The notes beneath the pieces were generated by a model. The model had not been told where the DNA came from. It worked only from the letters and a program-made list of their open reading frames with translations, and searched no databases. Shown here piece after piece: positions 7,726 to 28,494 of a stretch of DNA of 64,000 bases; the first letter of the stretch is position 1, and every line of letters begins with the position of its first letter. This DNA comes from Streptomyces sp. SLBN-31 (lineage in GTDB: Bacteria > Actinomycetota > Actinomycetes > Streptomycetales > Streptomycetaceae): NCBI RefSeq assembly GCF_006715395.1, contig NZ_VFNC01000003.1, positions 1,240,001 through 1,304,000 on the forward strand, in the 5' to 3' direction. A program made the translations under genes and the position numbers.

Positions 7726-7789
7726 GACGGTGCCGGTGGGAGACTTCCTGTTCGGCGCGGTGGGTCGGCCGTGGGGGAGGATCGGGGTT

Positions 7790-9989: not shown

Positions 9990-10026
9990 CATGGGTGGTA
10001 TTGGGCGAGCGTAGGGAGATACGGGC

Positions 10027-11814: not shown

Positions 11815-11840
11815 TCAAGAAGGGGTCGACCAGGGAGGGC

Positions 11841-11916
11841 TCAGGGCCACACCAGGCAGTACGGCTGGTGCCCCGCCTCGTGCAAGCGGTGGCTGAAGTC
11901 CTGCCACTCGTGCAGC
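11841..11916 (-). pseudogene. Orphan 3' end of the conserved gene at 25495-26133 (att-like)
   Basis: Read on the minus strand this encodes LHEWQDFSHRLHEAGHQPYC then LVWP and a TGA stop. These are exactly the last 24 residues of the gene ending at 25495. Identity ends right after the leading Leu codon. The terminal 46 or so bases carry mostly synonymous changes between copies, while a 27-base block (11890-11916 versus 25544-25570) is perfect. That is expected when an element integrates into a coding 3' end and supplies a replacement tail. Confidence 0.8.
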
Positions 11917-11965
11917 GATTGGGGGGCGGGAGGGCGCTGACCTGGGATTTGTCCGTGGAATGCGA

Positions 11966-12008
11966 GTTGACCCGGGAAAACTCCTCTCGGTGGTTCTCGC
12001 GGGTCAAC
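11966..12008. repeat. 16-bp imperfect inverted repeat
   Basis: GTTGACCCGGGAAAAC (11966-11981) and GTTCTCGCGGGTCAAC (11993-12008) are inverted with 14 of 16 matches around an 11-base spacer. It could be a terminator-like fold or a protein-binding dyad. Its place between the orphan gene end and the direct repeats favours a link with the recombination site. Confidence 0.6.
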
Positions 12009-12024
12009 GCCGCTTCCCAGGCTC

Positions 12025-12044
12025 ATGTGCCCTGAATGTGCCCT
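12025..12044. repeat. Two ATGTGCCCT direct repeats, one helical turn apart
   Basis: ATGTGCCCT occurs at 12025-12033 and again at 12036-12044, an 11-base period. An inverted GGCACAT lies at 25439-25445, just outside the other duplicated gene end. Phased short repeats near a core site are typical of tyrosine-recombinase arm sites, but none is proven here. Confidence 0.4.
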
Positions 12045-12147
12045 CGCGGCCTCTCAGTATTTCCTGGCGCTGTCATGCGCGGTCGTAGGCGCAGTCGCCG
12101 ACGGGGGCCGGGGCGCGAGGTACCGGCCTCCGCATACGCCCCCATGC

Positions 12148-13191
12148 TCACGACCCGTCAGCTGCCGCCGCCTGTCGCCCGATGGTGCTGGCTCGTGGAA
12201 TCAGCCGGTGCGGCGCCCGGATCTCCATGCCCGGGACGGGGGTCGAGCTGCCGATCCGCTTGAGCAGTCGTTCCACCGCCGTCTCCGCGATCACCTTCTT
12301 GTCCGGGGAGACCGTGGTGACGGACGGATTGGAGTAGCGGCCGTCCTCGATGTCGTCGTAACCGACGACGGCGACGTCCTCGGGGACGCGCAGTCCACGG
12401 GAGGCCAGGGTGTGCAGAGCACCCAGGGCGACCAGGTCGCTGTAGCAGAAGACCGCGTCGGGCGGTTCCTCCAGGTCGAGCAGGTGGGCCATGGCCGTCG
12501 CGCCGTCGGCGCGGTTGAAGCGTGGGGTGGAGACGACGAGTTCCTCGCGGACGGGCAGACCGGCCCGCTCGTGGGCCAACCAGTAGCCCCGGGTGCGCAG
12601 TTGGGCCGCCTCGCCGGTGCGGTAGGGCTGGTCGCCGATCGCGGCGACATGGCGCCGGCCGAGGCCGAGCAGATGCTCGGTCGCCTCCAGCGAGGCGGCG
12701 ACGTCGTCGATGCCGATGTGGTCGAAGCTGCCGTCGCTGACCCGCTCTCCGAGCACGACGAGAGGCAGGCTCGGGTCGCGTTCGGTCAGGTCGGACTGGG
12801 CGAGGCCGAGCGGGCTGAAGATGACGCCGTCGAAGAGCAGGTGCTGGGAGCCGCGGCTGAGGAAAAGCTTCTCGTGCTCGGCGTCGCCGTCCGTCTGGTC
12901 GATCAGGACGTTGTAGCCCTGGACCCGGGCCGCACGGATGATGCCCTGCAGCAGTTCGGCGAAGTACGGGGTGTCCAGGTACGGCACCACCACCGCGATC
13001 TGACCCGAGCGGCCTGCGGCGAGGTTGCGGGCCAGAACGTTGGGCCGGTAGCCGAGCTTGTCCACGGCTTGCTGAACCCGGAGACGGGTGGCCTCGGCGA
13101 CGGGCGCGTAGCCGTTGACCACGTTGGACACGGTCCGGCTGGAGACGCCGGCGAGCTCCGCGACGTCGCGGAGTGTGACGCCCTTTGCCAT
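12148..13191 (-). CDS. LacI-family repressor, probable arabinose regulator
   Basis: A 347-residue repressor with the LacI helix-turn-helix at the N-terminus (TLRDVAELAGVSSRTVSNVV, residues 6-25) and hinge region LGYRPNVLARNLA. A periplasmic-binding-protein-like effector domain follows. It is divergent from the sugar importer and overlooks three AGCGCT-core sites in the intervening 570 bases, the classic arrangement for local control and autoregulation. Arabinose or an arabino-oligosaccharide is the inferred inducer from context. Confidence 0.9.
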   Translation of the reverse strand: MAKGVTLRDVAELAGVSSRTVSNVVNGYAPVAEATRLRVQQAVDKLGYRPNVLARNLAAGRSGQIAVVVPYLDTPYFAELLQGIIRAARVQGYNVLIDQTDGDAEHEKLFLSRGSQHLLFDGVIFSPLGLAQSDLTERDPSLPLVVLGERVSDGSFDHIGIDDVAASLEATEHLLGLGRRHVAAIGDQPYRTGEAAQLRTRGYWLAHERAGLPVREELVVSTPRFNRADGATAMAHLLDLEEPPDAVFCYSDLVALGALHTLASRGLRVPEDVAVVGYDDIEDGRYSNPSVTTVSPDKKVIAETAVERLLKRIGSSTPVPGMEIRAPHRLIPRASTIGRQAAAADGS

Positions 13192-13216
13192 ATGCCACCT
13201 TCATCCCGGATGTCGG

Positions 13217-13230
13217 TTTCAGCGCTGAAA
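13217..13230. promoter_or_regulatory. LacI-type operator O1
   Basis: TTTCAGCGCTGAAA is a perfect 14-base palindrome 26 bases upstream of the repressor start codon. The central CG and dyad symmetry match LacI-family operators. It probably mediates autoregulation. Confidence 0.75.
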
Positions 13231-13290
13231 TTTTCCTCCAAGAGGTCCCCTGTGCCTCTTGCAGCGCGGCAACTTCTCGGTTAACACTTT

Positions 13291-13302
13291 TGCAGCGCTG
13301 CA
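13291..13302. promoter_or_regulatory. LacI-type operator O2
   Basis: TGCAGCGCTGCA is a perfect 12-base palindrome sharing the CAGCGCTG core with O1, 70 bases away from it. Two such sites flanking a divergent promoter region fit cooperative repression. Confidence 0.7.
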
Positions 13303-13616
13303 GAGCGTAGCAGAAGGGCTTGGTCCGGTCGGATCAAGTACCCAGGGTCCGTGACGTCGCCGCGCCACGGACCGGATCCCCGAGAGCGATCACGGGGATG
13401 AACAGTAGGAGCCGCAGTGGGACCAGCAACCTCTCACGGGCCGGGAGCCGCACCCGTCCTGACCGGGCATCACTCTTTACTCACCGCGGTCTGAGCCGTT
13501 GCCCGGCGCGCCCGCCGCGCTGATCACCGAGCCGTCTCCCCCTCACCGACGTCACGCACCCACCCTCCCGCGTCGACCGACGTCCGCCCGCCGGCATCCG
13601 TAGGCGGGTAACTCTC

Positions 13617-13626
13617 TGAGCGCTTT
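13617..13626. promoter_or_regulatory. LacI-type operator half-conserved O3
   Basis: TGAGCGCTTT repeats the AGCGCT core (13619-13624) 139 bases upstream of the binding-protein start. It is less symmetrical than the other two sites but is best placed to control the importer transcript. Confidence 0.5.
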
Positions 13627-13762
13627 GCGCCCGAAGCGCCTGCCCTTCACCCGAGCTCACCGCCTTCACGCCGGTCCTCCGCGTGCCCGGCGCGCCTCCT
13701 TGCACCTCCCGCACCTCCCGTCCTCCGTCCTGCCCTCGGGCACCACACCCAGGAGATCGCTC

Positions 13763-15115
13763 ATGTCGTCCAGCAGAAAGCCCCAGCTCCGTTCCGTCTG
13801 TCGAACAGCGTTCGCAGCGACCTCCGCCGCCCTCGCCGGCGTGCTCCTCGCGGCCTGCGGCGGCGGTGGCGGCAGCTCCACCGGTACGCAGAGCGGCCCC
13901 GTGCACATCAAGGTGTGGGCCTGGTACCCGCAGTTCAAGCAGGTCGTGGCCCAGTTCAACAAGACCCACAAGGACGTCCAGGTCGACTGGGTGCAGGCCG
14001 GCGTCGGCCAGGACGAGTACACCAAGCTGAAGACCGCGCTGAAGGCCGGCCAGGGCGCCCCGGACGTCGTCATGCTGGAGTTCCAGGAGCTGCCGACCAT
14101 CCAGCTCACCAAGGGCCTGCTCGACATGGGCAAGTACGGCGCCAACGCCGACAAGGGCAACTACGTGTCCTGGGCCTGGAACCAGGCCTCCGACGGCGAC
14201 CACGTCTACGCCATCCCGGTCGACGGCGGCCCGATGGCGATGATGTACCGGGCCGACCTCTTCAAGAAGTACAACCTGAAGGTGCCGACCACCTGGGCGG
14301 AGTACAAGGAGGAGGCGGCCAAGCTGCACAAGGCCGACCCCAGCGCCTACATGACCGACTTCGGCAGCGACGAGACGGCCGCCGGCTGGCGCCAGGGCCT
14401 GATGTGGCAGGCCGGCTCCCGCCCCTACAAGTACTCGGCGAGCAAGCTGCCGAACATCGGGGTGAAGCTCAACGACGACAACGCCAAGAAGGTGTACGAC
14501 TACTGGGGCGACCTGGTCAAGAACAAGCTGGTCGACACCGCCTCGTACGCCACCACCGACTTCTACAACGGACTCGGCACCGGCAAGTACGCCACCTACA
14601 TCGCGGCCGGCTGGGGCCCGGGCTACCTCTCCAGCGTCGCCGCGAAGACCTCCGGCAAGTGGCGCGTCGCCCCGCTGCCGCAGTGGACGGCGGGTGCGGG
14701 CGCCCAGGGCGACTGGGGCGGTTCGAGCTTCTCGGTGACCTCGCAGACCAAGCACCCCAAGGAGGCCACGGAGGTCGCCCGGGAGCTGTTCGGCACCTCC
14801 GAGGCAGCCTGGAAGATCGGCATCGACCAGGCCTACCTCTTCCCGCTGTCCAACCCGATCCTCAACGGGGCGTACTTCAAGTCCAAGAAGTACGACTTCT
14901 TCGGCGGCCAGCAGATCAACTCGGTGTTCGTGCCCGCCGCGAACGGCATCTCGACCTTCGACTGGAGCCCGTTCCAGGACTACGCCTACAACACCGACAC
15001 CAGTGAGGTGGGCAAGGCCCTCCAGGGCCAGACCGCCTGGTCGTCCGTCAACGACAACGTCCAGCAGCAGGTGACCTCCTACGCGGGCAAGCAGGGATTC
15101 AAGGTCAGCAAGTAA
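13763..15115 (+). CDS. ABC transporter sugar-binding lipoprotein (arabinose cluster)
   Basis: A 450-residue extracellular solute-binding protein of family 1. The signal peptide ends in lipobox LAAC with lipidated C32, followed by a Gly/Ser linker. The mature domain contains VHIKVWAWYPQFKQVVAQFN and DVVMLEFQELP, typical for sugar-binding subunits. The ATG is supported by AGGAG 8 bases upstream. It is first in an operon with two permeases and two arabinan-degrading enzymes, so arabinose or arabino-oligosaccharide binding is inferred. Confidence 0.9.
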   Translation: MSSSRKPQLRSVCRTAFAATSAALAGVLLAACGGGGGSSTGTQSGPVHIKVWAWYPQFKQVVAQFNKTHKDVQVDWVQAGVGQDEYTKLKTALKAGQGAPDVVMLEFQELPTIQLTKGLLDMGKYGANADKGNYVSWAWNQASDGDHVYAIPVDGGPMAMMYRADLFKKYNLKVPTTWAEYKEEAAKLHKADPSAYMTDFGSDETAAGWRQGLMWQAGSRPYKYSASKLPNIGVKLNDDNAKKVYDYWGDLVKNKLVDTASYATTDFYNGLGTGKYATYIAAGWGPGYLSSVAAKTSGKWRVAPLPQWTAGAGAQGDWGGSSFSVTSQTKHPKEATEVARELFGTSEAAWKIGIDQAYLFPLSNPILNGAYFKSKKYDFFGGQQINSVFVPAANGISTFDWSPFQDYAYNTDTSEVGKALQGQTAWSSVNDNVQQQVTSYAGKQGFKVSK

Positions 15116-15212
15116 CCGGCCCGAGTCCCGACTCCCCACCGCCCCCGTCGGCGCGCCCGCGCCCGACAGCTCCGCCGCCGGCGGGGGCCCGCACCACGCG
15201 CAAGGAGAAGTG

Positions 15213-16196
15213 ATGAGCCTGCTCCGACAGCAGGGATCCACCGCGACGGCACCGCCAAGTGCCGTCCCCGCGAGGGGACTTCGCACTCCCGTGGCGGGCC
15301 GGCGCCCCGGCGGGCTGTCCGCCCGCACCCGGCACAAGGGCATGGGCCTGCTGCTGGTCAGCCCGTTCCTCCTGCTCTTCCTGGCCTTCCTGGTGGCCCC
15401 GCTGTGCTACGCCTTCTGGCTCAGCCTGAGGACCGCCACCCTGGTCGGCGGCGACCACTTCAGCTGGTTCGCCAACTACCAGCAGACCTTCACCGACCCG
15501 AAGTTCCTGGCCGGCGTGCGCAGAGTCGTCGTCTTCGGTGTGGTGCAGATCCCGCTGATGCTCGGCCTCGCCCTGCTGGGCGCGCTGATCATCGACGAGG
15601 TCACCAGCAAGCTCGCCAAGGTCTTCCGGATGACCCTGTTCATGCCGTACGCCGTTCCCGCGGTGATCGGCGCCCTGATGTGGGGCTTCCTCTACAGCCC
15701 GACCTTCGGCCCGGTGAACTCGATCAGTAACTCGCTCGGCCTCGGCAAGGTCGACCTGCTGTCGCACGGTCTGATGCTGACCTCGCTCGGCAACATCGTG
15801 ACCTGGCAGTGGACCGGCTACAACATGATCGTCCTGTACGCCGCCCTGCAGGGCCTGCCCCGCGAGGTCTACGAGGCGGCGAAGCTCGACGGCGCCGGCC
15901 AGGTGCAGACGGCCCTGCGCATCAAGATCCCGATGATCTCCTCGGCGATGGTGCTCGCGCTGATGTTCACCATCATCGGCACCCTGCAGTTCTTCACGGA
16001 GCCGCGGGTCCTGGAGCACAGCGCCTCCTCGGTGATCACACCGGACTACACGCCGAACCTGTACGCCTACAACCTGGCGTTCCAGTACTCGGAGTTCAAC
16101 TACTCCGCCGCCATCTCCTTCTCCCTCGGAGCGGTGGTCTTCATCGGCTCCTACTTCTTCCTGTTCGCCACGCGCAAGAGGAGCGGACTGAAGTGA
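15213..16196 (+). CDS. Sugar ABC transporter permease 1 (MalF-like)
   Basis: A 327-residue membrane protein of the carbohydrate-uptake 1 family with six or so predicted helices and the cytoplasmic EAA loop YEAAKLDGAGQVQTALRIK, which contacts the ATPase. AAGGAG precedes the ATG at 15213; a GTG directly before it is less well spaced. The stop overlaps the next permease start (GTGA), indicating coupled translation. Confidence 0.9.
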   Translation: MSLLRQQGSTATAPPSAVPARGLRTPVAGRRPGGLSARTRHKGMGLLLVSPFLLLFLAFLVAPLCYAFWLSLRTATLVGGDHFSWFANYQQTFTDPKFLAGVRRVVVFGVVQIPLMLGLALLGALIIDEVTSKLAKVFRMTLFMPYAVPAVIGALMWGFLYSPTFGPVNSISNSLGLGKVDLLSHGLMLTSLGNIVTWQWTGYNMIVLYAALQGLPREVYEAAKLDGAGQVQTALRIKIPMISSAMVLALMFTIIGTLQFFTEPRVLEHSASSVITPDYTPNLYAYNLAFQYSEFNYSAAISFSLGAVVFIGSYFFLFATRKRSGLK

Positions 16197-17095
16197 CCAC
16201 CGTCGCCGCACCCGCCGTAACCGCCGCCCCGGCCACCGGCCGTCGTCCGTCCGCCGCCCGTGGACGCGTCACCGTCAACGTGGTGATGGTGGCGATGATC
16301 CTGTACTTCCTGCTGCCGTTCTGGTGGCTGGTCGTCGCCGCCACCAAGGGCAACGACGCGCTGTTCTCCACCGCCGCCCTCTGGTTCCACTCGCCGGGCT
16401 CCTTCTTCACCAACCTCCAGCAGCTGTTCACGTACAACGACGGCGAGTACCTGCGCTGGATGGGCAACACCGCGGTCTACGCCGGTGTCAGCGGCGTCGG
16501 TGCCACCGCCGTGGCGACCCTCGCGGGCTACGCCTTCGCCAAGTACCGATTCCCCGGCCGCAACCTGCTCTTCTCCAGCCTCCTCGGCGCCATCATGGTG
16601 CCCGCCACCGCGCTGGCCATCCCCACCTATCTGCTGCTGAGCAAGGTGGCGCTGACCAACACCATGTGGGCGGTCATCCTGCCCCAGCTGCTCAACCCCT
16701 TCGGCGTCTACCTCGTACGGGTCTACGTCCAGGAGTCCCTGCCGGACGAGCTGCTGGAGGCGGCCCGCATGGACGGGGCCGGCGAGCTGCGCGTGCTGTG
16801 GTCGGTGGCGCTGCCGACCCTGAAGCCGGCGCTCGTCACCGTGCTGCTGTTCTCCATGGTCGGCACCTGGAACAACTTCTTCCTACCGCTGGTCATGCTC
16901 AACAACGACAAGCTGTTCCCGCTCACCGTCGGCCTGCAGTCCTGGTACGAGGGGGCGATGATCCAGTCCGGCGCAAACGCGCTGTTCACCCTGGTCATCG
17001 CGGGTTCCCTGGTGGCGATCCTGCCGCTGATCGTCACCTTCCTGCTCCTTCAGCGGTACTGGCGCGGCGGGTTGACCGTCGGAAGTCTCAAGTGA
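16193..17095 (+). CDS. Sugar ABC transporter permease 2 (MalG-like)
   Basis: A 300-residue partner permease starting with GTG that overlaps the previous stop. It has an N-terminal helix (VVMVAMILYFLLPFWWLVVA) and the EAA loop LLEAARMDGAGELRVLWSV. No ATP-binding gene follows. Streptomyces importers of this class commonly share the housekeeping ATPase MsiK, so one is expected to be supplied from elsewhere. Confidence 0.9.
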   Translation: MTTVAAPAVTAAPATGRRPSAARGRVTVNVVMVAMILYFLLPFWWLVVAATKGNDALFSTAALWFHSPGSFFTNLQQLFTYNDGEYLRWMGNTAVYAGVSGVGATAVATLAGYAFAKYRFPGRNLLFSSLLGAIMVPATALAIPTYLLLSKVALTNTMWAVILPQLLNPFGVYLVRVYVQESLPDELLEAARMDGAGELRVLWSVALPTLKPALVTVLLFSMVGTWNNFFLPLVMLNNDKLFPLTVGLQSWYEGAMIQSGANALFTLVIAGSLVAILPLIVTFLLLQRYWRGGLTVGSLK

Positions 17096-17171
17096 TCCGG
17101 CGCGCCCGTCTGTTGACCTGACGGGCCCGCCCGTTCCCCCCTCTTCTCGCGCACCTCCCGGAGCGACCTTC

Positions 17172-18692
17172 ATGCTGCACGCCTCCCTGACCGTCGACCC
17201 CGCCTTCCGCGTCGCCGACGTGAGTCCCCGTACCTTCGGCTCGTTCGTCGAGCACATGGGCCGCTGCGTCTACACCGGCATCTACGAGCCCGGCCATCCC
17301 CTTGCAGACGAGGACGGCCTGCGCCGTGACGTCCTGGACCTGGTGCGCGAGCTGGGCGTGACCGCCGTGCGCTACCCCGGCGGCAACTTCGTCTCCGGCT
17401 TCCGCTGGGAGGACAGCGTCGGCCCGGTCGCCGACCGCCCCACCCGTCTCGACCTCGCCTGGCACAGCACCGAGACCAACGCGTTTGGCCTGCACGAGTT
17501 CCACCGCTGGGCCGAGAAGGCCGGCGTCGAGCCGATGATGGCCCTCAACCTCGGCACCCGGGGCGTCGCCGAGGCCCTGGACCTGCTGGAGTACTGCAAC
17601 CACCCGGGCGGCACCGCCTGGTCCGACCAGCGGATCAAGAACGGCGCCCCCGACCCCTTCGGCATCCGCATGTGGTGCCTGGGCAACGAGATGGACGGCC
17701 CCTGGCAGACCGGCCACAAGACCGCCCAGGAGTACGGCCGCATCGCCGCCGAGGCCGCCCGGGCCATGCGCATGATCGATCCGAAGCTCGAACTGGTCGC
17801 GTGCGGCAGCTCCAGCTCCTCCATGCCGACCTTCGGCGCCTGGGAGGCCACGGTCCTGGAGGAGGCGTACGACCAGGTCGACTACATCTCCTGTCACGCC
17901 TACTACGAGGAACTGGACGGCGACCTCGGCAGCTTCCTGGCCTCCGGAGTCGACATGGACCACTTCGTCGACTCGGTGGTCGCCACCGCCGACCACATCC
18001 GGGCCAAGCTGCGCCGCAAGAAGCGGATCAACCTCTCCTTCGACGAGTGGAACGTCTGGTACAACACCCGTTTCGAGGCGGCGGAGAAGCCCACCGAGTG
18101 GGCCGTCGCCCCGCGCGTGATCGAGGACGAGTACAACGTCGCCGACGCCGTCGTCGTCGGCGGGCTGCTGATCAGCCTGCTGCGGCACAGCGACCGCGTC
18201 ACCGCCGCCTGCCTCGCCCAGCTGGTCAACGTCATCGCCCCGATCCGCAGTGAGGCCGGCGGTCCCAGCTGGCGGCAGACCACCTTCCACCCCTTCGCCC
18301 AGGCCGCCCGGCACGCCCGCGGGACGGTCCTGCGCGTGGAGCCGGTGGCACCGACGTATGAGACGAAACGTTTCGGCGAGGTCTCCGTCGTCGACGCCGT
18401 GGCCACGCACCTCGCGGAGGCGGACGGCGCCGACGAGCTCACCGTCTTCGCCGTCAACCGGCACCAGAGCGAGAACGTCGAACTCGCCCTCGACCTGCGC
18501 TCGTTTCCCGGCTACATGCCGGTCGAGCACTCGGTGCTGAGCGACCCCGACATCCGCGCCGCCAACACCCAGGACGACCCCGACCGGGTACGGCCGTACG
18601 CCGCCGGCACCGGTTCCGTCACCGACGGACGCCTCACCGCGAGCCTGCCGCCGGTCTCCTGGAACGTCATCCGGCTGCGCCGCGCCGGCTGA
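17172..18692 (+). CDS. Alpha-L-arabinofuranosidase, GH51
   Basis: A 506-residue intracellular glycoside hydrolase with no signal peptide. The catalytic acid/base is predicted as E173 in CLGNEMDGPWQ and the nucleophile as E292 in LSFDEWNVWY. The N-terminal GSFVEHMGRCVYTGIYEPGH is the GH51 hallmark, and the C-terminal beta domain is complete. It releases L-arabinose from imported arabino-oligosaccharides. It follows the permeases by 76 bases in the same orientation. Confidence 0.95.
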   Translation: MLHASLTVDPAFRVADVSPRTFGSFVEHMGRCVYTGIYEPGHPLADEDGLRRDVLDLVRELGVTAVRYPGGNFVSGFRWEDSVGPVADRPTRLDLAWHSTETNAFGLHEFHRWAEKAGVEPMMALNLGTRGVAEALDLLEYCNHPGGTAWSDQRIKNGAPDPFGIRMWCLGNEMDGPWQTGHKTAQEYGRIAAEAARAMRMIDPKLELVACGSSSSSMPTFGAWEATVLEEAYDQVDYISCHAYYEELDGDLGSFLASGVDMDHFVDSVVATADHIRAKLRRKKRINLSFDEWNVWYNTRFEAAEKPTEWAVAPRVIEDEYNVADAVVVGGLLISLLRHSDRVTAACLAQLVNVIAPIRSEAGGPSWRQTTFHPFAQAARHARGTVLRVEPVAPTYETKRFGEVSVVDAVATHLAEADGADELTVFAVNRHQSENVELALDLRSFPGYMPVEHSVLSDPDIRAANTQDDPDRVRPYAAGTGSVTDGRLTASLPPVSWNVIRLRRAG

Positions 18693-18786
18693 CCCACCCC
18701 TCGGACACCCGCCGCTCCTTGTTCTCCCCGGAAAGCGGCGGGCCCCGCACCACCCCCTCTTCCCGGACGTTCCTTGGGAGCCGCCC

Positions 18787-20832
18787 ATGTCCACCACCAG
18801 GGAAGGCGCCATACTCCGCGCCGTACCCCGCACCCAGGCGATCACCCTGCTGCTGGCCCTGCTCGCAGCCGCCGTCGCCCTCGTCCTGCCCGCAGCCGGC
18901 CCGGCGCACGCCATCTCGCGCGCCTCGCAGACGATGTACACCCCGCCGTCGAACGCCCCGTCCCCCGGCTCGCTCTACCCGCGCGCCGTGCGCCTGCAGT
19001 ACAGCGGATCCTCCGACGGCACCCTGCTCGCCACCTTCGAGCAGTACAGCTCGGGCACCCCGGTCTTCCCGATCTACCGCAGCACCGACAACGGCAACAA
19101 CTGGACGCAGATCTCCAGCATCACCGACACGCACAACGGCTTCGGCATGCGCTACCAGCCGTTCCTGTACGAACTCCCCACGGCCGTCGGCAACTTCCCG
19201 GCCGGCACGATCCTCGCTGCCGGCAACTCCATCCCGAGCGACCTCTCCTCGACCGAGCTGGACCTGTACGCCAGCACCGACCATGGCACCAGCTGGTCGT
19301 ACGTCAGCACCATCGCCACCGGCGGCAAGGCCGACCCCACCAACGGCCAGACGCCCGTGTGGGAGCCGTTCCTGATGGTGTCCGGCTCCAAGCTGATCGT
19401 GTACTACTCCGACCAGCGTGACCCCAACAACGGCCAGAAGATCGTGCACCAGGTCAGCACGGACGGCCTGACCTGGAGTTCCGTGGTGAACGACGTCGCC
19501 ACCTCGACGTACGGCGACCGCCCGGGCATGCCGGTGGTCGCGAAGCTCCCCAACGGCAACTACGTGATGACGTACGAGTTCTGGGGCGCCCCCGAGGGCG
19601 GTTTCGCCGTCTACTACAAGGTCTCCTCCGACCCTGAGGCGTTCCGCTCCGCCACCGGCATGGCGCTCAAGGCAACCGACGGCACCCAGCCCAAGAGCTC
19701 CCCGTACATCACCTGGCTGCCCACCGGCGGAGCCAATGGCACCCTCGTGGTCAGCGCCAACAGCAGCGACGACCTGTTCCTCAACACGCAGAACGGCGCC
19801 GCGAACACCTGGACGCGCATCGCCTCCACCGTCCCCGGCGGCTACAGCCGAGGCCTGCTCCCGCTGGCCGACGGCCACAGCCTGCTGGTCCTCAGCGGTG
19901 GCCACCTCACCAGCACCGGCCTCAACCCGGTCAGCTACGGCACGATCGACCTGGGCGGCGGCATTTCGGACGGCGCCACGTACACCATGTCCAACGCCAA
20001 CAGCCATCTGATGCTGACGATCGTTGGCGGTTCCACGACCAACGGCGTGGGCGCCACCCAGCAGAACGCCGACAACGCCACCGACCAGCAGTGGAAGTTC
20101 GTCCAGCAGACCTCCGGCTACTTCAAGATCTTCAACGTGGCCAGCGGCAAGGTCCTGGGCGTGCAGAACCAGTCCACCGCCAACGGCGCCAAGGTCCTGC
20201 AGTGGGACGACAACGGTACCCTCGACCACGAGTGGGCCATCGCCCCGAACCCGGCGGGCGGCTTCACCGCCACCAACCGGATCAGCAGCAAGTTCCTGGA
20301 GATCCCCAGCGCCTCCACCACCGTCGGCACGGCCGCCGGGCAGTGGTCCGACACCGGCTGCGCCTGCCAGCGCTGGAACCTCACCCAGACCGCACTGCCC
20401 ACCCTGTCCACCGGCCAGTACCGGCTGGTCAACAAGAACAGCGGCAAGTTCCTGGAGATCCCCGGCGCCTCCACCACGGCGGGCAAGCAGGCGGGCCAGT
20501 GGGTGAACACCGCCAACAACTGTCAGCTGTGGTCGTTCCAGTCGCAGAGCGGCGGGGCGTGGACCGTGAAGAACGTCAACAGCGGTCTGTTCCTGGACAA
20601 CAACGGCTCGACCTCGTCGGGGGCGGCCGTCGTCCAGAACTCGTCCTCCAGCGCGAGTTCCCAGAAGTGGACGCTCACGGACGCGGGAGGCGGCTACTTC
20701 AAGCTCGTCAACTCCGCGAGCGGCCTGGTCGCGGACGTCGCCTCCGCCTCCACCGCGAACGGCGCGCTGATCGTCCAGTCGGCGGACAACGGCGCCGATG
20801 ACGAACTGTGGCAGGTCGTGCGGGTCAACTGA
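18787..20832 (+). CDS. Secreted BNR/propeller hydrolase (likely GH93 exo-arabinanase) with ricin-type lectin repeats
   Basis: A 681-residue secreted protein. A Sec signal peptide ends near AGPAHA (about residue 41). Residues 45-390 form a sialidase-like propeller with Asp-box-like repeats (STDNGNNWTQI, STDHGTSWSYV, STDGLTWSSV). Residues 395-681 hold two ricin B-like modules with repeated QW-type ends and duplicated SSKFLEIPSAST / SGKFLEIPGAST segments. The fold plus the arabinose context suggest GH93 exo-1,5-arabinanase; catalytic residues were not verified. It probably feeds the importer. Confidence 0.75.
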   Translation: MSTTREGAILRAVPRTQAITLLLALLAAAVALVLPAAGPAHAISRASQTMYTPPSNAPSPGSLYPRAVRLQYSGSSDGTLLATFEQYSSGTPVFPIYRSTDNGNNWTQISSITDTHNGFGMRYQPFLYELPTAVGNFPAGTILAAGNSIPSDLSSTELDLYASTDHGTSWSYVSTIATGGKADPTNGQTPVWEPFLMVSGSKLIVYYSDQRDPNNGQKIVHQVSTDGLTWSSVVNDVATSTYGDRPGMPVVAKLPNGNYVMTYEFWGAPEGGFAVYYKVSSDPEAFRSATGMALKATDGTQPKSSPYITWLPTGGANGTLVVSANSSDDLFLNTQNGAANTWTRIASTVPGGYSRGLLPLADGHSLLVLSGGHLTSTGLNPVSYGTIDLGGGISDGATYTMSNANSHLMLTIVGGSTTNGVGATQQNADNATDQQWKFVQQTSGYFKIFNVASGKVLGVQNQSTANGAKVLQWDDNGTLDHEWAIAPNPAGGFTATNRISSKFLEIPSASTTVGTAAGQWSDTGCACQRWNLTQTALPTLSTGQYRLVNKNSGKFLEIPGASTTAGKQAGQWVNTANNCQLWSFQSQSGGAWTVKNVNSGLFLDNNGSTSSGAAVVQNSSSSASSQKWTLTDAGGGYFKLVNSASGLVADVASASTANGALIVQSADNGADDELWQVVRVN

Positions 20833-20839
20833 TCCGCCA

Positions 20840-20865
20840 GGGGGCCCGGTCGCGGCCGGGCCCCC
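20840..20865 (+). terminator. Strong hairpin terminator before araB
   Basis: GGGGGCCCGG (20840-20849) and CCGGGCCCCC (20856-20865) form a perfect 10-bp stem with a 6-base loop, 8 bases after the secreted hydrolase stop. It should end the importer/hydrolase transcript, so araBAD probably has its own promoter or depends on read-through. Confidence 0.8.
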
Positions 20866-20926
20866 GTCCTTCTGTCCAGCATTCCGACCGATGACTGAAA
20901 TACCGAACGAGAAAGGTGGGCCGCCT

Positions 20927-22582
20927 GTGTCTGAAGAACCCTGTGTCGTGGGCGTCGACTTCGGCACCCTGTCCGGCCGTGCCGTGGTGGTACGGGTCAG
21001 CGACGGCACGGAACTGGCGTCGGCGGAGCACGTCTACGCCCACGCCGTCCTCGACCGGACCCTGCCCGACGGCACTCGGCTGCCCCCCGACTGGGCCCTC
21101 CAGGTGCCCTCGGACTACATCGACGTACTCCGCAACGCCGTACCCGAGGCCCTCGCCCGCGCCGGAGTCCGGCCGGAGCAAGTCATCGGCATCGGCACCG
21201 ACTTCACTGCCTGCACGGTCCTGCCGGTCCTCGCCGACGGCACACCGCTGTGCGAACTCCCCGGCCTGGAGAACCGCCCGCACGCTTACGTCAAGCTCTG
21301 GCGCCACCACTCCGCCCAGGATCAGGCCGACAGGATCAACGCGCTGGCCGCCGAGACGAAGGAGCCGTGGCTCGAGCGGTACGGCGGGAAGATCTCCTCG
21401 GAGTGGGAGTTCGCCAAGGCCCTCCAGGTGCTGGAGGAGGACCCCGAGGTCTACCGGCGCACCGAGCGGTGGCTGGAGGCGGCCGACTGGATCGTGTGGC
21501 GGCTGTGCGGGACATACGTCCGCAACGCCTGCACGGCGGGCTACAAGGGCCAGTATCAGGACGGCCGTTACCCGTCGCCCGGGTATCTGGCGGCGCTGCA
21601 CCCGGACTTCGCCGGCTTCGTGACCGACAAGCTGGACCACCCGATTGGTCAACTGGGCGACGCAGCAGGGGCGTTGACGGCCGAGGCGGCCGCCTGGACC
21701 GGGCTGCCGGAGGGCATCACCGTCTGCGTCGGCAACGTGGACGCCCATGTCAGCGCCCCGGCGGCGGTCGCCGTGGAACCCGGCCAGATGGTCGCCATCA
21801 TGGGCACCTCCACCTGCCACGTCATGAGCTCCGACCAGCAGGGTGTCGTGCCCGGCATGTGCGGGGTCGTGGACGGCGGCATCCTCCCCGGGCTCTGGGG
21901 CTACGAGGCCGGGCAGAGCGGCGTCGGCGACATCTTCGGCTGGTTCGTCCGCACGGGCCTGCCCGCCGAGTACGCGGAGCGCGCAGCCGCGGCCGGCCAG
22001 ACCCCGCACGAGTACCTGACCGACCTCGCGGCCGGGCAGAAGGTGGGCGAACACGGCCTGATCGCCCTCGACTGGCACAGCGGCAACCGGTCCGTCCTGG
22101 TCGACCACGACCTCAGCGGCCTGCTGATCGGCCAGGCGCTCTCCACCCGCCCGGAGGACATCTACCGCGCTCTGCTGGAGGCCACCGCCTTCGGCACCCG
22201 CACCATCATCGACGCCTTCGAGTCCGCCGCCGTACCGGTGACGGAACTGATCATCGCGGGTGGCCTGACGAAGAACGCCCTGCTCATGCAGATCTACGCC
22301 GACGTCACCCGCCGCCCCCTGAGCATCATCGGCTCCACCCAGGGTCCGGCCCTCGGCGCCGCGATGCACGCCGCCGTCGCCGCCGGGGCGTACCCCGACA
22401 TCCGCGCCGCGGCCCACGCCATGGGCAAGGTGCACCGCCGGGTCTACCTGCCGGACCCGCAGCGGGCGGCGGCCTACGAGCGCCTCTACTCCGAGTACCA
22501 CGTGCTGCACGACTACTTCGGCCGCGGCACCAACGACGTCATGCACCGCCTGCGCCGCATCCGCGCCGAAGCCTCCGCCTGA
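20927..22582 (+). CDS. araB: Ribulokinase
   Basis: A 551-residue FGGY-family kinase that phosphorylates L-ribulose to L-ribulose-5-phosphate. The N-terminal phosphate-binding strand VGVDFGTLSGRAVVV and the C-terminal ATP-site glycine cluster (IIAGGLTKNALLMQIYADV) are intact. I prefer GTG at 20927, preceded by GAAAGGTGGG; an upstream ATG at 20891 lacks a ribosome site. It precedes araA and araD, completing the bacterial arabinose pathway. Confidence 0.93.
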   Translation: MSEEPCVVGVDFGTLSGRAVVVRVSDGTELASAEHVYAHAVLDRTLPDGTRLPPDWALQVPSDYIDVLRNAVPEALARAGVRPEQVIGIGTDFTACTVLPVLADGTPLCELPGLENRPHAYVKLWRHHSAQDQADRINALAAETKEPWLERYGGKISSEWEFAKALQVLEEDPEVYRRTERWLEAADWIVWRLCGTYVRNACTAGYKGQYQDGRYPSPGYLAALHPDFAGFVTDKLDHPIGQLGDAAGALTAEAAAWTGLPEGITVCVGNVDAHVSAPAAVAVEPGQMVAIMGTSTCHVMSSDQQGVVPGMCGVVDGGILPGLWGYEAGQSGVGDIFGWFVRTGLPAEYAERAAAAGQTPHEYLTDLAAGQKVGEHGLIALDWHSGNRSVLVDHDLSGLLIGQALSTRPEDIYRALLEATAFGTRTIIDAFESAAVPVTELIIAGGLTKNALLMQIYADVTRRPLSIIGSTQGPALGAAMHAAVAAGAYPDIRAAAHAMGKVHRRVYLPDPQRAAAYERLYSEYHVLHDYFGRGTNDVMHRLRRIRAEASA

Positions 22583-22603
22583 CCCACTGTGAAGGGAACC
22601 CTC

Positions 22604-24121
22604 ATGACCACTTCCGAAAGGCCCTACGACAGCCAGGAGATCTGGTTCCTCACAGGAAGCCAGGGCCTGTACGGCGACGATGTGCTGCGCCAGGTCGCCG
22701 ACCAGTCCCGCAGCATCTCCGAGATCCTCGGCCGCCCCGGGAAGGTCCCGGTCAGGATCGTGTGGAAGCCGGTCCTGACCGATGCCGAGTCGATCCGCCG
22801 GATGTGCCAGGAGGCGAGCGCCTCCGACGCCTGCGTGGGCGTGATCGTCTGGATGCACACCTTCTCCCCGGCGAAGATGTGGATCGCCGGACTCAGTGCC
22901 CTGGACCGGCCGTTGCTGCATCTGCACACCCAGTACAACCTGTCGCTGCCCTGGCCGAGCATCGACATGGACTTCATGAACCTCAACCAGGCCGCTCACG
23001 GCGACCGGGAGTTCGGGCACATCGAGTCCCGCGTCGGCGTCGACCGCAAGATCGTCGCCGGTCACGCGACCGACCCGAGGGTGATCGGGCGCGTCGCCGC
23101 CTGGGCCCGGGCCGCCGTCGGCCGCCACGCCTCGCGGACGCTCCGGCTCGCCCGCTTCGGCGACAACATGCGCGACGTCGCGGTCACCGAGGGCGACAAG
23201 GTGGAGGCCCAGCTGCGGTTCGGCTTCTCCGTCAACACCTATGCCGTCAACGACCTGGTCGCCGTGGTCGACGACGTCGAGGACAAGGCGGCCGCCGAAC
23301 TCGCCGACGAGTACGTGGAGTCGTACGACGTCGTCCCGGCCCTGCGCCCCGGCGGCATCCGCCACGACTCGCTGCTGTACGCGGCCCGCCTCGAACTCGG
23401 CCTGCGCGCCTTCCTCACCGACGGCGGCTTCACTGCCTTCACCACCAACTTCGAGGACCTCGGCGGGTTGCGCCAGCTGCCCGGCATCGCCGTCCAGCGG
23501 CTGATGGCCGACGGCTACGGTTTCGGCGGCGAGGGCGACTGGAAGACCTCCGCGCTGCTGCGCACGATGAAGGTCATGGGCGCCGGACGCCCCGGCGGCA
23601 CCACCTTCATGGAGGACTACACCTACCACCTCGGCCCCGGCACCCCGCGCGTCCTGGGCGCCCACATGCTGGAGGTCTGCCCCTCCGTGGCCGCCGACCG
23701 CCCGCGCTGCGAGATCCACCCCCTGTCCATCGGCGGCCGCGAGGACCCGGTCCGCCTGGTCTTCAACGCCTCCGAAGGGCCTGCCGTGGTCGTCGGCCTC
23801 TCCGACCTCGGCGACCGCTTCCGCCTCACCGCCAACGCCGTCGACGTCGTCGCCCCCAGCGAACCCCTGCGCCGCCTGCCGGTCGCCCGGGCCGTATGGA
23901 AGCCACGTCCGTCCCTGGCGGAATCGGCGGAGAGCTGGCTGCTGGCCGGCGCCCCGCACCACACAGTGCTCAGCTCCGCCGTCGATCTGGAGACGCTCAC
24001 CGACTACGCGTCCATGACCGGCGTCGAACTGCTCACCATCGACGAGAACACCACCACGGCGCGGTTCGCCCAGGAGATCCGCTGGAACGCCGCCTACCAC
24101 CGCCTCGCCCAGGCCCTGTGA
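22604..24121 (+). CDS. araA: L-arabinose isomerase
   Basis: A 505-residue isomerase converting L-arabinose to L-ribulose, close to the usual 500-residue length. Typical segments include [16 protein letters not shown] at the N-terminus, [29 protein letters not shown] and FMEDYTYHL, which carry the metal and substrate ligands of the family. The ATG at 22604 has GAAGGGA upstream. The gene lies 21 bases after araB and ends 14 bases before araD. Confidence 0.95.
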
Positions 24122-24135
24122 CGAAGGAGACCACG

Positions 24136-24861
24136 ATGACCACAGTTGTCCGGGAGGGCCTGCGCCAGGAGGTCCTGGAGGCGAACCTCGCCATCCCCCA
24201 GGTCGGCCTGGCGACTCTCACCTGGGGAAACGTCAGCGGGATCGACCGCGAGGCGGGCGTGTTCGTCATCAAGCCCTCCGGGGTTCCCTACGAGGCACTC
24301 ACCATCGACGACCTGGTGACGGTCCGCCTGTCCGACGGCGCGGTGGTCGGGGGCCACCTGCGCCCGTCCACCGACACCGAGACCCACCGCTGCCTGTACC
24401 TGGCATTTGGGTCGGTCGGCGGCGTGACCCACACCCACTCCACCCACGCGGTCGCCTTCGCCCAGGCCCACCGGGACATCCCCGTCCTCGGCACCACCCA
24501 CGCGGACACCTTCAACGGCCCCGTGCCGGTCACCCGCGACCTCACCGAGGAGGAGTGCGCGAAGGACTACGAGTACAACACCGGCCACGTCATCGTGGAC
24601 CTCCTCGACGGCGACGACCAGCGGGCCGTCGAGGTCCCCGCCGCCCTCGTCGCGGGCCACGGCCCCTTCACCTGGGGCGCCACCGCCCGCAAGTCCCTGG
24701 AACACGCGATCATCTGCGAGGCCGTCGCCGACATAGCCCTCCACACCATGTCCCTCTCACCGACGACACCACCACCTCCTCACCTCCTGAACCGCCACTA
24801 CACCCGCAAGCACGGCCCCGACGCCTACTACGGCAATCCGGCCGACCCGGTGATGCGGTGA
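24136..24861 (+). CDS. araD: L-ribulose-5-phosphate 4-epimerase
   Basis: A 241-residue class II aldolase-type zinc enzyme that converts L-ribulose-5-phosphate to D-xylulose-5-phosphate, joining arabinose to the pentose phosphate pathway. The zinc histidines are in THTHSTHAVAFAQ (about residues 97-104) and in the later VAGHGPFTWG segment; the N-terminal TWGNVSG loop binds phosphate. AAGGAG lies 6 bases before the ATG. Confidence 0.95.
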   Translation: MTTVVREGLRQEVLEANLAIPQVGLATLTWGNVSGIDREAGVFVIKPSGVPYEALTIDDLVTVRLSDGAVVGGHLRPSTDTETHRCLYLAFGSVGGVTHTHSTHAVAFAQAHRDIPVLGTTHADTFNGPVPVTRDLTEEECAKDYEYNTGHVIVDLLDGDDQRAVEVPAALVAGHGPFTWGATARKSLEHAIICEAVADIALHTMSLSPTTPPPPHLLNRHYTRKHGPDAYYGNPADPVMR

Positions 24862-24866
24862 CGGCG

Positions 24867-25247
24867 ATGCACAGAAGCCGCGTATACGCCGTACTGATCG
24901 ACGCACCCCAGGCCGAGGCTGCCCGGGCAGCGGACTTCTGGTCGGCCGCTCTCGGTGTGACCGCCCAACCGTTTCCACCGGCACCGCAGTTCACCACGCT
25001 CCACCAGGCCCTGCCAGGGGTGATCACCGCAGTCCAGGCGGTCGACGACGCACCTCGTATCCACCTCGACATCGAGACCGACGACGTCGAATCGGAGACC
25101 GCGCGCTTGATCGCCCTGGGCGCCGAGCAGGTTTCGCGGTGGCAGGAGTGCCGCGTGCTACGAATTCCTGGCGGTCATCTGCTGTGCGTACTACCTGTGG
25201 AGAGCGATCCCGACACTTTCCGGGCAAAGGCCAACGTTTGGCCGTGA
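24867..25247 (+). CDS. VOC-family (glyoxalase/bleomycin resistance-like) protein
   Basis: A 126-residue single-module vicinal oxygen chelate protein with the DAPQAEAARAADFWSAALG opening and the IHLDIETDDVESETARLIALGA mid-section usual for this fold. A GTG at 24858 overlaps the araD stop (GTGA) and would add three residues, so translational coupling is possible. It is the last gene before the right boundary of the island. Substrate unknown. Confidence 0.8.
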   Translation: MHRSRVYAVLIDAPQAEAARAADFWSAALGVTAQPFPPAPQFTTLHQALPGVITAVQAVDDAPRIHLDIETDDVESETARLIALGAEQVSRWQECRVLRIPGGHLLCVLPVESDPDTFRAKANVWP

Positions 25248-25451
25248 CGAGTACGTGCGGTCTCGGGTGACCTGCCCCTCACCCCCAGGTCGGCCGAGAC
25301 CGGCGAGTGGCTCGTGGTTCAGAGGGCGGGGACGAAGGGTGGCTCTCCCCGGTCGGTCGCAAGGGGCTGGCTCGAGCGCGTCGACGGCCGGCCCGCCGAT
25401 CCCCTCGGCGAGGACGGAAGACGAGGGGTGACCGGCCTGGCACATGACAAA

Positions 25452-25473
25452 GGCGGGACCCGAAAGCCCCGCC
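25452..25473 (-). terminator. Probable terminator of the conserved gene ending at 25495
   Basis: GGCGGG (25452-25457) and CCCGCC (25468-25473) pair around a 10-base loop, about 20 bases beyond the stop codon at 25495 on the minus strand. Being downstream of the replaced gene end, it may have arrived with the integrated element. Confidence 0.5.
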
Positions 25474-25494
25474 CGCACCAAAAGAAGCCCCAGG

Positions 25495-26133
25495 TCACGG
25501 CCAGACAAGGCAATAAGGCTGATGCCCCGCCTCATGCAGCCGATGGCTGAAGTCCTGCCACTCGTGCAGCAGCTGGTAGACGTTGAAGGCGTCCCGCGGG
25601 CCGCCCCGGTCCGGGACCGTCGACCAGATGAACGCCGCCGCGCCCACCGCCTCCTCGCCTATGCCGCGCAGGGGGTCGACCACCGTCATCGGGAGCTTGA
25701 CGACCGCGTAGTCGGGGTGCAGGACGACCAGCTCCAGCGGCGGAACCTTGTGCAGGGGCACGCCTTCGATGCCCGTCAGCACCATCGCCGCCATCGTCTC
25801 CGGCTTGATCTTGGTGAACATGCCGTTCATGCCGAGCTCGTCGCCGCCGAGTTCCTCGGGGCGCATCGAGATCGGGACGCGGGCCGCGGTCGCACCGTCC
25901 GGCGCGCCGAAGTACTTGTACGTCACCCCCACCCGACCACCATTCCTGCTCCCGTCCCGCAGGCTGTCGAGCCGGCGGTCGCCGCGCCGCTCGAACTGCT
26001 CGGGCTCACTCGGTACACCCTGACCCTGACGTGTCTCGGTAGCTTCCTCCGCCTCGCGTCGGTGCCTTCCCCGCCGGGCACGTCGAGGACCCAGGTCGTC
26101 AGTCCCCTCGCCCAGTCCGCCACCGCGATGCAT
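25495..26133 (-). CDS. Conserved Streptomyces protein of unknown function; integration target
   Basis: The coherent domain runs from TYKYFGAPDGATAARVPISM through LGMNGMFTKIKPETMAAMVL to the C-terminal LHEWQDFSHRLHEAGHQPYC tail; no known motif or signal is seen. The start is unresolved. ATG at 26133 gives 212 residues, but third-position G/C bias becomes strong only from about 26016. A GTG at 25926 gives 143 residues and overlaps the stop of an upstream 72-codon frame (GTGA). Its 3' end from 25570 down is duplicated at 11841-11916. Confidence 0.75.
   Translation of the reverse strand: MHRGGGLGEGTDDLGPRRARRGRHRREAEEATETRQGQGVPSEPEQFERRGDRRLDSLRDGSRNGGRVGVTYKYFGAPDGATAARVPISMRPEELGGDELGMNGMFTKIKPETMAAMVLTGIEGVPLHKVPPLELVVLHPDYAVVKLPMTVVDPLRGIGEEAVGAAAFIWSTVPDRGGPRDAFNVYQLLHEWQDFSHRLHEAGHQPYCLVWP
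25544..25570. repeat. 27-bp core repeat, right copy (att-like)
   Basis: Identical to 11890-11916 over all 27 bases, in the same orientation, starting TGGCTGAAGTCC and ending CGTGCAGC. It lies inside the last codons of the conserved gene. Beyond the core the copies diverge: totally on the upstream-codon side, and only synonymously on the stop-codon side. Confidence 0.85.
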
Positions 26134-26141
26134 ATCTCCAC

Positions 26142-26485
26142 CCGACTGCTTTTCTAGGACGCGTGGCCCCCGCCGCGCAACCCGATCATCGTGTCAGTGA
26201 CCTCCCCCACGGCCGCCCGCCGAAACGTGCGCTGAAACACCTGTCCGCAGGATCTTCGCAGCCCCTGAACACGCCTTCGTCCATGCATACGTACGAGAAG
26301 GCCGTTTGAGCTGTGTGTATCAGGACCCAGTTTCGCAGATCGACTCGGGGCGCCGCTGTCCGTCCGGTCAGCAGCGCCCTCCCGGCCGTCCGTACCCGCT
26401 GGCCTACCCTGAGGAGGTCACAGGCAACCGGAGCCGAAGTGAGTGGTCCCGAGCAGTCCCGAGAAGGTCGGAGAAGTCGCTGGTC
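26142..26485. other. Intergenic region upstream of hemL
   Basis: About 340 bases between the divergent conserved gene and hemL. It must hold the promoters of both. No unmistakable -10/-35 pair, riboswitch or operator was found. GAGGAGGTCACAGG near 26410 resembles a ribosome site but leads to no supported start. Confidence 0.4.
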
Positions 26486-27805
26486 ATGAGCGAACTGCCA
26501 TATTCCTACGAAGCCCCCGTGTCGCAGGCGCTGTTCGACCGCGCGTCCGCCGTCACGCCCGGCGGCGTGAACTCCCCGGTGCGCGCCTTCCGCGCCGTGG
26601 GCGGTACGCCCCGGTTCATGGTGTCCGGTTCGGGCCCGTACCTGACGGACGCGGACGGGCGGGAGTACGTCGATCTCGTCTGCTCCTGGGGCCCGATGAT
26701 CCTCGGGCACTCCCACCCCGAGGTGATCGCCGCCGTCCAGGGCGCCGTCTCGCGCGGTACCTCCTTCGGCACTCCGGGTGAGGGCGAGGTCGCGCTCGCG
26801 GAGGAGATCGTCGCCCGGGTGGAGCCCGTCGAGCAGGTCCGGCTCGTCAGCAGCGGCACCGAGGCCACCATGAGCGCCATCCGGCTCGCCCGCGGTTTCA
26901 CCCGGCGCAGCAAGGTGATCAAGTTCGCCGGCTGCTACCACGGTCACGTCGACTCGCTCCTCGCCGCGGCGGGCAGCGGGGTGGCGACCTTCGCGCTTCC
27001 CGACACGCCGGGTGTGACCGGCGCCCAGGCCGGCGACACGATCGTCCTGCCCTACAACGACGTGGAGGCCGTCAACGAGGCCTTCCACCGGCACCCCGGT
27101 GAGATCGCCTGCGTGATCACCGAGGCGTCGCCGGGCAACATGGGCGTCGTTCCGCCGCGCCCCGGCTTCAACCAGGGCCTGAAGGACGCCTGTGCCGAGA
27201 ACGGCGCCCTCTTCATCTCCGACGAGGTCATGACCGGGTTCCGCACCAGCCGGGCAGGGTGGTTCGGCATCGACGGGGTGCGGCCCGACCTGATGACCTT
27301 CGGCAAGGTCATGGGCGGCGGTTTCCCGGCCGCGGCCTTCGGCGGCCGCGCCGACGTCATGGAGCACCTCGCGCCCGCCGGGCCCGTCTACCAGGCCGGC
27401 ACCCTCTCCGGGAACCCGGTCGCCACCGCCGCCGGTCTCGCCCAGCTCCGGCTCCTGGACGACGCCGCCTACGCCAAGGTCGACGCGGTGTCGGAGACGA
27501 TCCAGGGGCTGGTGACGGAGGCGCTGAGCAAGGAGGGCGTCGCGCACCGGCTGCAGAACGCCTCCAACATGTTCTCCGTGTTCTTCGCGGACCGGGACGT
27601 CCGTGACTACGAGGACGCCAAGCGGCAGGAGTCCTTCCGCTTCACCGCGTTCTTCCACTCGATGCTGGCGCAGGGCGTCTACCTCCCGCCCTCGTCCTTC
27701 GAGTCCTGGTTCGTGTCCACGGCCCACGACGAGCAGGCCGTGCAGCGCATCGCCGACGCCCTCCCGGCGGCGGCCCGAGCGGCGGCGGAGGCCACGGCGG
27801 TATGA
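26486..27805 (+). CDS. hemL: Glutamate-1-semialdehyde 2,1-aminomutase
   Basis: A 439-residue PLP enzyme that makes 5-aminolevulinate from glutamate-1-semialdehyde in the C5 haem pathway. The PLP lysine is K274 in [17 protein letters not shown], and the [12 protein letters not shown] and [16 protein letters not shown] segments are intact. GGAGAAG lies 9 bases before the ATG. The stop overlaps the next gene (ATGA). Proximity to cytochrome c maturation genes links haem synthesis and use. Confidence 0.97.
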
Positions 27806-28494
27806 GCGAGCAGACGAACAACAAGGACATCACCGTCGTGCACGTCGTGCGGCACGGCGAGGTCGAGAACCCGGACGGCATCCTCTACGGCCGTCTCGCC
27901 GGGTACCACCTGTCCGCGCTGGGGCGGCAGATGGCCGACCGGGTCGCCGAGCACCTGGCCTCCCGCGACATCGCGTACGTGTGCTCCTCCCCGCTGGAGC
28001 GGGCGCAGGAGACCGCGACGCCGGTCGCCAAGGCGCACGGACTCGACCTCGCGACCGACGAGCGGCTCATCGAGGCCGACAACGTCTTCCAGGGCAAGAC
28101 CTTCGGCGTCGGGGACGGCGCGCTCAGGAAGCCGGCCAACTGGAAGTTCCTGACCAACCCCTTCCGGCCGTCGTGGGGCGAGCCGTACGTCGACATCGTC
28201 GTACGGATGATGCAGGCGCTGGAGTCCGCCAAGGAGCAGGCGCGGGGGCACGAGGCCGTGCTCGTCAGCCACCAACTGCCGATCTGGACCGTGCGGTCGT
28301 ACGTCGAGCGGCGGCGGTTGTGGCACGACCCGCGCAAGCGGCAGTGCACGCTGGCCTCGCTGACGAGCTTCACGTACCAGGGTGACAAGATCGTGTCCGT
28401 GGGCTACAGCGAGCCCGCCATCGATCTCGTCCCGGCCCACCTCCGGGCGGGCGCGAAGCCGGCGCCGGGGAAGACCAAGGCCTTCGGCGCGTGA
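27802..28494 (+). CDS. Histidine phosphatase family protein (phosphoglycerate-mutase-like)
   Basis: A 230-residue phosphatase with the catalytic RHG motif (R17-H18-G19 in [10 protein letters not shown]), substrate arginine in [12 protein letters not shown], and the second histidine in [11 protein letters not shown]. It overlaps hemL by four bases, so the two are translated together. The substrate is unknown; annotation as phosphoglycerate mutase would be too specific. Confidence 0.88.

Follow-up and report, generated by a model that had tools for sequence, protein, structure and literature searches.

Why are the last codons of a conserved gene of Streptomyces sp. SLBN-31 encoded a second time, on the far side of a cluster of putative arabinose and arabinan genes? 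The locus is contained in a stretch of 64,000 nucleotides (assembly GCF_006715395.1, contig NZ_VFNC01000003.1, positions 1,240,001 to 1,304,000), which is called the window here and whose numbering is used unless another genome is named. An initial annotation had proposed that a site-specific element is integrated in the coding 3' end of this gene, a proposal that is borne out by an unoccupied site, a foreign gene tail, and element ends shared with other genomes. Very probably, positions 11917-25543 constitute an element integrated at the 3' end of the target gene and belonging to a family of mobilizable-like elements of this site, with the window copy being a remnant that resembles a cis-mobilizable element (CIME) and carries an arabinose module.

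The Target Gene and Its Duplicated Tail

The positions on which the argument is built are the following:

25495..26133 (-), target gene, conserved Streptomyces hypothetical protein, adjoining a class-III aminotransferase gene (hemL in the initial annotation)
25495..25543 (-), replacement 3' end of the target gene, synonymous, probably element-derived
25544..25570 (-), core of the gene-side attachment (att) site, 27 bp, equal to 11890-11916
11890..11916 (-), core of the distal att site, 27-bp match to the gene-side core
11841..11916 (-), distal tail copy, native 3' end of the target gene

The protein encoded by the target gene ends in ...LHEWQDFSHRLHEAGHQPYCLVWP*, and translation of the minus strand of 11841-11916 yields the identical 24 residues, stop included, in the same orientation, as initially annotated. 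The two tails (25495-25570 and 11841-11916) are 76 bp long and share 87% identity, at E = 1e-19 when the complete genome of 9.47 Mb is searched. Within them, the annotated 27-base block is confirmed as identical at 27/27 bases, while all 10 differences fall within the 49 bases 3' of this core, every one of them being synonymous. A third tail copy was not found in the whole genome at E <= 0.001, nor any further significant tail or arm within the window; a query with the whole gene gave one extra match of 41 bp on C1, which starts in the core and runs upstream, with few tail bases included.

Pfam and NCBIfam scans of the target gene returned no family match, hence it has no curated name; one match to it carries a source name beginning with “Suppressor of fused-lik”. 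The gene is presumably SCO4468, which is listed in a sigma-E regulon table.

An Unoccupied Site and the Probable Origin of Each Tail

For comparison, the best 80 of 534 loci with relatives of the target gene, all from Streptomyces, were kept (L-numbers). The best target-gene match among them, L006 from Streptomyces panaciradicis, aligns on the gene side at 10639-7644 with 25495-28490 of the window (96% identity) and on the far side at 12578-10564 with 9941-11916 (89% identity). The overlap between these flank matches is precisely the 76-bp tail, i.e., the flanks are joined at a single tail. L006 is, thus, a natural unoccupied site, the single-copy arrangement that the initial annotation had suggested looking for in relatives, and the two tails with their identical cores are the two att sites flanking the element of the window.

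L006 also allows the origin of each tail to be traced. Downstream of the core, the distal tail differs from L006 at 2/49 positions, the gene's own tail at 9/49, and the gene body at 13/563 (Fisher p = 1.5e-5 for gene tail versus gene body). Of all the tails set side by side, the distal one of genome G091 and the one at the gene in locus L017 come nearest to the gene's own tail, with 1 difference in 76 bases. Since the gene's own tail is foreign and the distal tail the native one, the element most likely brought along a synonymous replacement 3' end for the target gene.

The duplicate has been weighed against two readings that dispense with a mobile element. A degraded paralogue at 11841-11916, which the initial annotation had named as an alternative, was rejected because the BLAST matches end at the core, leaving no upstream remnant beyond it. 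A chance or partial gene duplication has in its favour that a 76-bp duplicate, taken alone, can arise in other ways, but it is at odds with the empty site, the tail replacement and, as set out below, the shared element ends and the different cargo at this site in other genomes, so that its probability is negligible.

In L042 and L055, the region corresponding to window position 7468 is located within about 0.7 kb downstream of the target gene. Because of this proximity, 7468-11841 (4.4 kb, with a GAF-domain kinase) may represent an older insertion layer; no additional tail was found in that segment.

Occupants of the Same Site in Other Genomes

A survey of 150 genomes of the genus (G-numbers) used the gene end region as a query, with at most four candidates scored per genome. 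All 150 genomes gave a match, two of the best matches being weak (G017, E 6.5e-4; G099, E 3.5e-23). Two or more matches were present in 59/150 genomes, all of which were searched again with the tail, whereupon G105 and G050 gave none. At least 15 of the 150 genomes, including that of the window, have a pair of tails on the same strand of a single contig, one at the gene and the other 5.7-34 kb away; this number is a lower bound because few candidates were scored per genome and many assemblies are fragmented. Besides the window's element, 13 bracketed elements were fetched, the fifteenth (G147) not being among them. Among the 80 loci, 7 have another tail match of >=55 bp and 18 an integrase match downstream of the target gene, where at most 10 kb downstream and in some cases a much shorter stretch was covered, which hides elements as long as that of the window. 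L015 and G026, both 753,681 bases long, are apparently the same contig and, hence, not independent. G068 has incomplete tails of about 53 bp (92%) at C1:209112 and 11915646, located on opposite strands near both chromosome ends, as they might be if they were part of terminal inverted repeats.

A tyrosine recombinase beside the site, which the initial annotation had recommended searching for, was indeed found. Six of the 13 elements (G003, G007, G079, G104, G117, and G142) contain a full-length tyrosine integrase frame on the strand opposite to the gene, its 3' end being 66-67 bp behind the target-gene stop codon, and all six have matches to an excisionase-like protein, DUF3631, MobC, and a relaxase. 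The same five matches occur together in 6/80 loci (L016, L041, L060, L065, L067, and L075). Domain scans of the proteins of G117 and G007 returned Phage_integrase, HTH_17 or “excise”, DUF3631, MobC, and a MobA/VirD2-type relaxase, with the G007 relaxase relative having no Pfam match of its own; DUF2637 is restricted to G117 and G079 among the 13 elements. FtsK/SpoIIIE (PF01580) has matches in all six genomes, none of them inside the coordinates of the six elements (VirB4 and VirD4 were not searched for). Judging from their gene content, the intact members look like integrative mobilizable elements, because relaxase and MobC are present and no FtsK/SpoIIIE domain is found inside them.

In the other elements this backbone is incomplete. 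The integrase is partial or broken in 3/13 (G025, G047, and G080), G080 having a truncated integrase that runs directly into a truncated relaxase, and no integrase match is present in 4/13 (G016, G026, G091, and G131). Only a 3' piece of the relaxase is left in G016 and only a weak integrase fragment in L063. G091, G131, and L063 have cargo in common with the integrase-bearing G079.

Cargo between the repeats differs among genomes, as had been anticipated. The element of G142 (L122-L123) carries, at the same site, chaperone-type genes, which we take to be dnaK, grpE, dnaJ, an HspR-like gene, clpB, and a thioredoxin gene. L072, at 10802-13234, is a locus with a partial second tail and a gene presumably encoding a GH10 xylanase, perhaps a second plant-polysaccharide cargo, and L031, at 11872-13931, combines a partial second tail with an SBF-family transporter (PF01758) that adjoins what is presumably an arsenate reductase gene. 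L015 contains, at 13452-18026, a large AAA helicase with an REase_MTES_1575 domain, 85% identical to a protein in the G104 element and perhaps a defence gene.

These occupants also bear on whether the window copy might be the remnant of a prophage. Tyrosine integrases at gene 3' ends are also typical of phages, and the window itself holds no mobility genes from which the kind of element could be told. Against this, full-backbone occupants of the site carry MobC and relaxase genes, and no phage structural gene was seen among the proteins scanned, which were part of each element and were compared without a phage-family library; a prophage origin is, accordingly, very improbable.

Element Ends

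Two end regions of the window's element are shared with the integrase-bearing elements of the same site:

25436..25494 (-), proximal end, GC-rich hairpin, probable terminator
11917..12047 (-), conserved distal end, with two AGGGCACAT-type direct repeats (12025-12033 and 12037-12045) and an inverted repeat (11967-11975 / 12000-12008)

When the tails are excluded, identity to the six integrase-bearing elements amounts to 79-83% over the distal 131 bp and 70-82% over the proximal 56 bp, compared with 48%, i.e., random level, for the L006 stretch 3' of the stop codon in the same alignment. The hairpin behind the target-gene stop codon has a folding energy of -28.3 kcal/mol (z -2.05), which is a modest excess given that 7/200 shuffled sequences fold equally well; the corresponding stretch of L006 has a z of +2.12.

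A strong fold is predicted for the 128-base single strand of the distal end (z -5.75). The inverted repeat at 11967-12008 (GTTGACCCG/CGGGTCAAC in the window) is found at the same place in 14 other aligned elements, with letters altered in some, and may be involved in binding of the excisionase-like protein, in bending of the att site, or in transfer as an origin. An RNA function is not claimed for it: the RNAalifold covariation term is unfavourable (+0.42 of an energy of -16.92), and two-sided changes are seen at 2/27 pairs. No known RNA family was found in 11700-25800 at the gathering threshold.

Mobility Genes in the Window and in the Host Genome

In agreement with the initial annotation, a full-length member of the integrase family, used as a tblastn query, gave nothing between the repeats at E <= 0.001, and the seven backbone proteins likewise had no match in the window's element at this threshold. 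At looser E values, 11800-25500 gave a 16-residue match to the integrase C-terminus, overlapping the repeats (E 0.003), and a MobC match (E 0.025). Other kinds of transfer genes were not found in the element by Pfam scans of its open reading frames (ORFs), beyond which no dedicated search was made. An intact close relative of the site integrase is missing from the genome, whose best matches are a broken copy (51%) on C3 and an 86-residue match (75%) on C1, followed by matches of 34% and 26% to other frames. Fragments of integrases of the same or a related family lie elsewhere in the genome at C1:1104975-1105217 and C3:936277-937404.

This absence could also mean that the island has not decayed at all, having arrived whole as a minimal non-autonomous element of two ends and cargo whose movement depends on an integrase and a relaxase resident in the cell and acting in trans. 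In keeping with such an element, the island holds little apart from the module and its two ends, the distal end has retained 79-83% identity despite the absent mobility genes, and the four integrase-less elements among the 13 have likewise kept their distal end. It is, however, quite unlikely, given that the proximal integrase repeats are lost, that the host genome has no intact close integrase relative, and that, among the matches listed, the arabinose cargo occurs at this site in no other genome of 392, although spread in trans would predict some.

The Arabinose Cargo

The genes between the repeats correspond to the arabinose/arabinan module with its own repressor that had been described initially:

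12148..13191 (-), LacI-family repressor
13625..15115 (+), ABC transporter solute-binding protein
15210..16196 (+), ABC sugar permease 1
15809..17095 (+), ORF with ABC sugar permease 2 (PF00528 at residues 237-414; the ORF start is not necessarily the protein start)
17172..18692 (+), alpha-L-arabinofuranosidase (Alpha-L-AF_C)
18787..20832 (+), exo-arabinanase / exo-1,5-alpha-L-arabinofuranobiosidase with ricin-type lectin domain
20798..22582 (+), araB, FGGY kinase, start uncertain
22589..24121 (+), araA, L-arabinose isomerase
24136..24861 (+), araD-like gene, recognized by its reading frame and homologous DNA elsewhere; presumably L-ribulose-5-phosphate 4-epimerase
24867..25247 (+), glyoxalase-like small protein, inside ORF 24555-25247

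A role of this cargo in arabinose and arabinan utilization is predicted from the gene families. Eight of the cargo proteins (one read in the wrong frame; araD and glyoxalase excluded) had no match in 16 other bracketed elements at E <= 1e-5. The complete module occurs with the same gene order and about 88% identity at other loci in G141 and G144, with what we take to be transposase-like genes on one side of the G144 module. In a survey of 392 genomes of the genus, for which the best places were listed, the query 16900-24841 was found, among the matches listed, in one piece in G243, G141, G144, G234, and G295, in several pieces in G292, and in part in G182 and G177. In all eight genomes, the target gene is distant from the module or on another contig, and the five module loci fetched besides that of the window have neither tail nor arm; among the nine module-bearing genomes, the module is in the gene-end slot in that of the window only. 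Since other species have the module as a unit at different loci, this cargo is not bound to the element, and its location varies in its own right.

AraA has matches at E <= 1e-50 in 25/150 genomes, and a second araBA pair is present in the window genome at C2:2972997, its AraA being 83% identical. The cluster may have moved from the place syntenic with that of G141: the left flank of the G141 module locus is present in the window genome (C1:495112-500593, 78-82%); the 14 kb retrieved there did not contain the right flank.

Proposed Origin and Potential Mobility of the Window Copy

According to the preferred reading, an element spanning about 11917-25543 would have entered by site-specific recombination at the 27-bp core in the 3' end of the target gene, presumably by an integrase of the family found at this site. 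Entry would have exchanged the last 49 bases of the gene for the element's synonymous version, together with a probable terminator, and displaced the native 3' end by 13.65 kb. The family would be characterized by a tyrosine integrase, an excisionase-like HTH protein, DUF3631, MobC, and a relaxase, and the window copy would have originated through loss of these mobility genes while keeping both att cores and carrying the arabinose/arabinan module. Such a remnant would be movable only if an element with a matching integrase entered the cell. Its ends match those of the integrase-bearing elements of the same site, and an intermediate with arabinose cargo was not seen.

Several observations weigh against this reading. 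The distal flank of L006 is merely 89% identical and, therefore, L006 is close yet no very recent sister. No second tail of >=55 bp was present in 73/80 loci and no integrase match in 62/80, within the stretches of at most 10 kb downstream that were covered. Hairpin-like sequence follows the stop codon in L042 and L055, too, two loci that showed no second tail, and therefore the hairpin alone is no marker of an element. The proximal AGGGCACAT repeats are lost from the window's element, so that the gene-side site may fail even if an integrase is supplied. No genome was found in which a version of the element with an integrase also contains the arabinose module, hence the ancestor is a reconstruction, and no other module copy is located at the gene-end site among the matches listed for the 392 genomes. 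Excision or transfer of any family member is, moreover, a prediction from gene content.

Compared with the initial annotation, it can be added that many species of the genus use the site, that the source elements look like mobilizable elements with a relaxase, and that the window copy is best read as a decayed remnant. A more far-reaching view, which we regard as rather unlikely, would make the gene end a genus-wide docking slot, at which integrase-less descendants are movable in trans by means of the 130-bp end with its paired repeats and inverted repeat, and metabolic modules are exchanged between Streptomyces species as cassettes, each with a replacement gene end and terminator.

Comparison with Known Systems

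The target as an integration site, the element family, and the combination with this cargo were not found in searches of open-licence papers; the initial annotation, too, knew of no described element of this type with arabinose genes at this target. The integrase and the core might serve as an integration tool, and the integrase family together with the conserved ends allows islands to be delimited to the exact base in many genomes.

The concept of CIMEs is defined in PMC5704250. By that description, the window's island resembles a CIME in that no integration or transfer genes were found, both att cores are present, and the site is that of integrase-bearing relatives; it differs in carrying a sugar-use module, in being a single copy with no tandem array seen, in having lost the gene-side repeats, and in being known from sequence alone. 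The intact relatives, with their integrase, excisionase-like gene, MobC, and relaxase and no FtsK/SpoIIIE domain found, resemble the integrative mobilizable elements with canonical relaxase outlined in the same paper; they add DUF3631, and the window copy has none of the backbone genes. A series emerges from relaxase-bearing elements via partly deleted ones to integrase-less islands.

Actinomycete integrative and conjugative elements (AICEs) are described in PMC3218068 as having an FtsK-like transfer protein, with most of those using tyrosine recombinases residing in tRNA genes, and DUF3631 corresponds there to RepAM among the AICE replication proteins. The intact relatives share with AICEs such as pSAM2 the tyrosine integrase and the DUF3631/RepAM-type protein, but they have a relaxase and a protein-gene target, and an FtsK/SpoIIIE transfer protein, by which AICEs are recognized, was not found inside any of the six.

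Also comparable are islands that Streptomyces strains carry at the 3' ends of bacA and aviX1 (PMC10711302 and PMC4057263). Some of these have no integration genes, and at bacA two strains have tandem islands containing genes for sugar transport and catabolism (PMC10711302). Like these, the window's island is located at the 3' end of a protein gene, and, like some of them, it shows no integration genes; unlike them, it has a different target gene and border sequence. The integration event is, hence, of a known kind, with target and border different from those of bacA and aviX1, and the locus adds a gene-end docking site in Streptomyces to these two, with a putative catabolic module riding in the slot.

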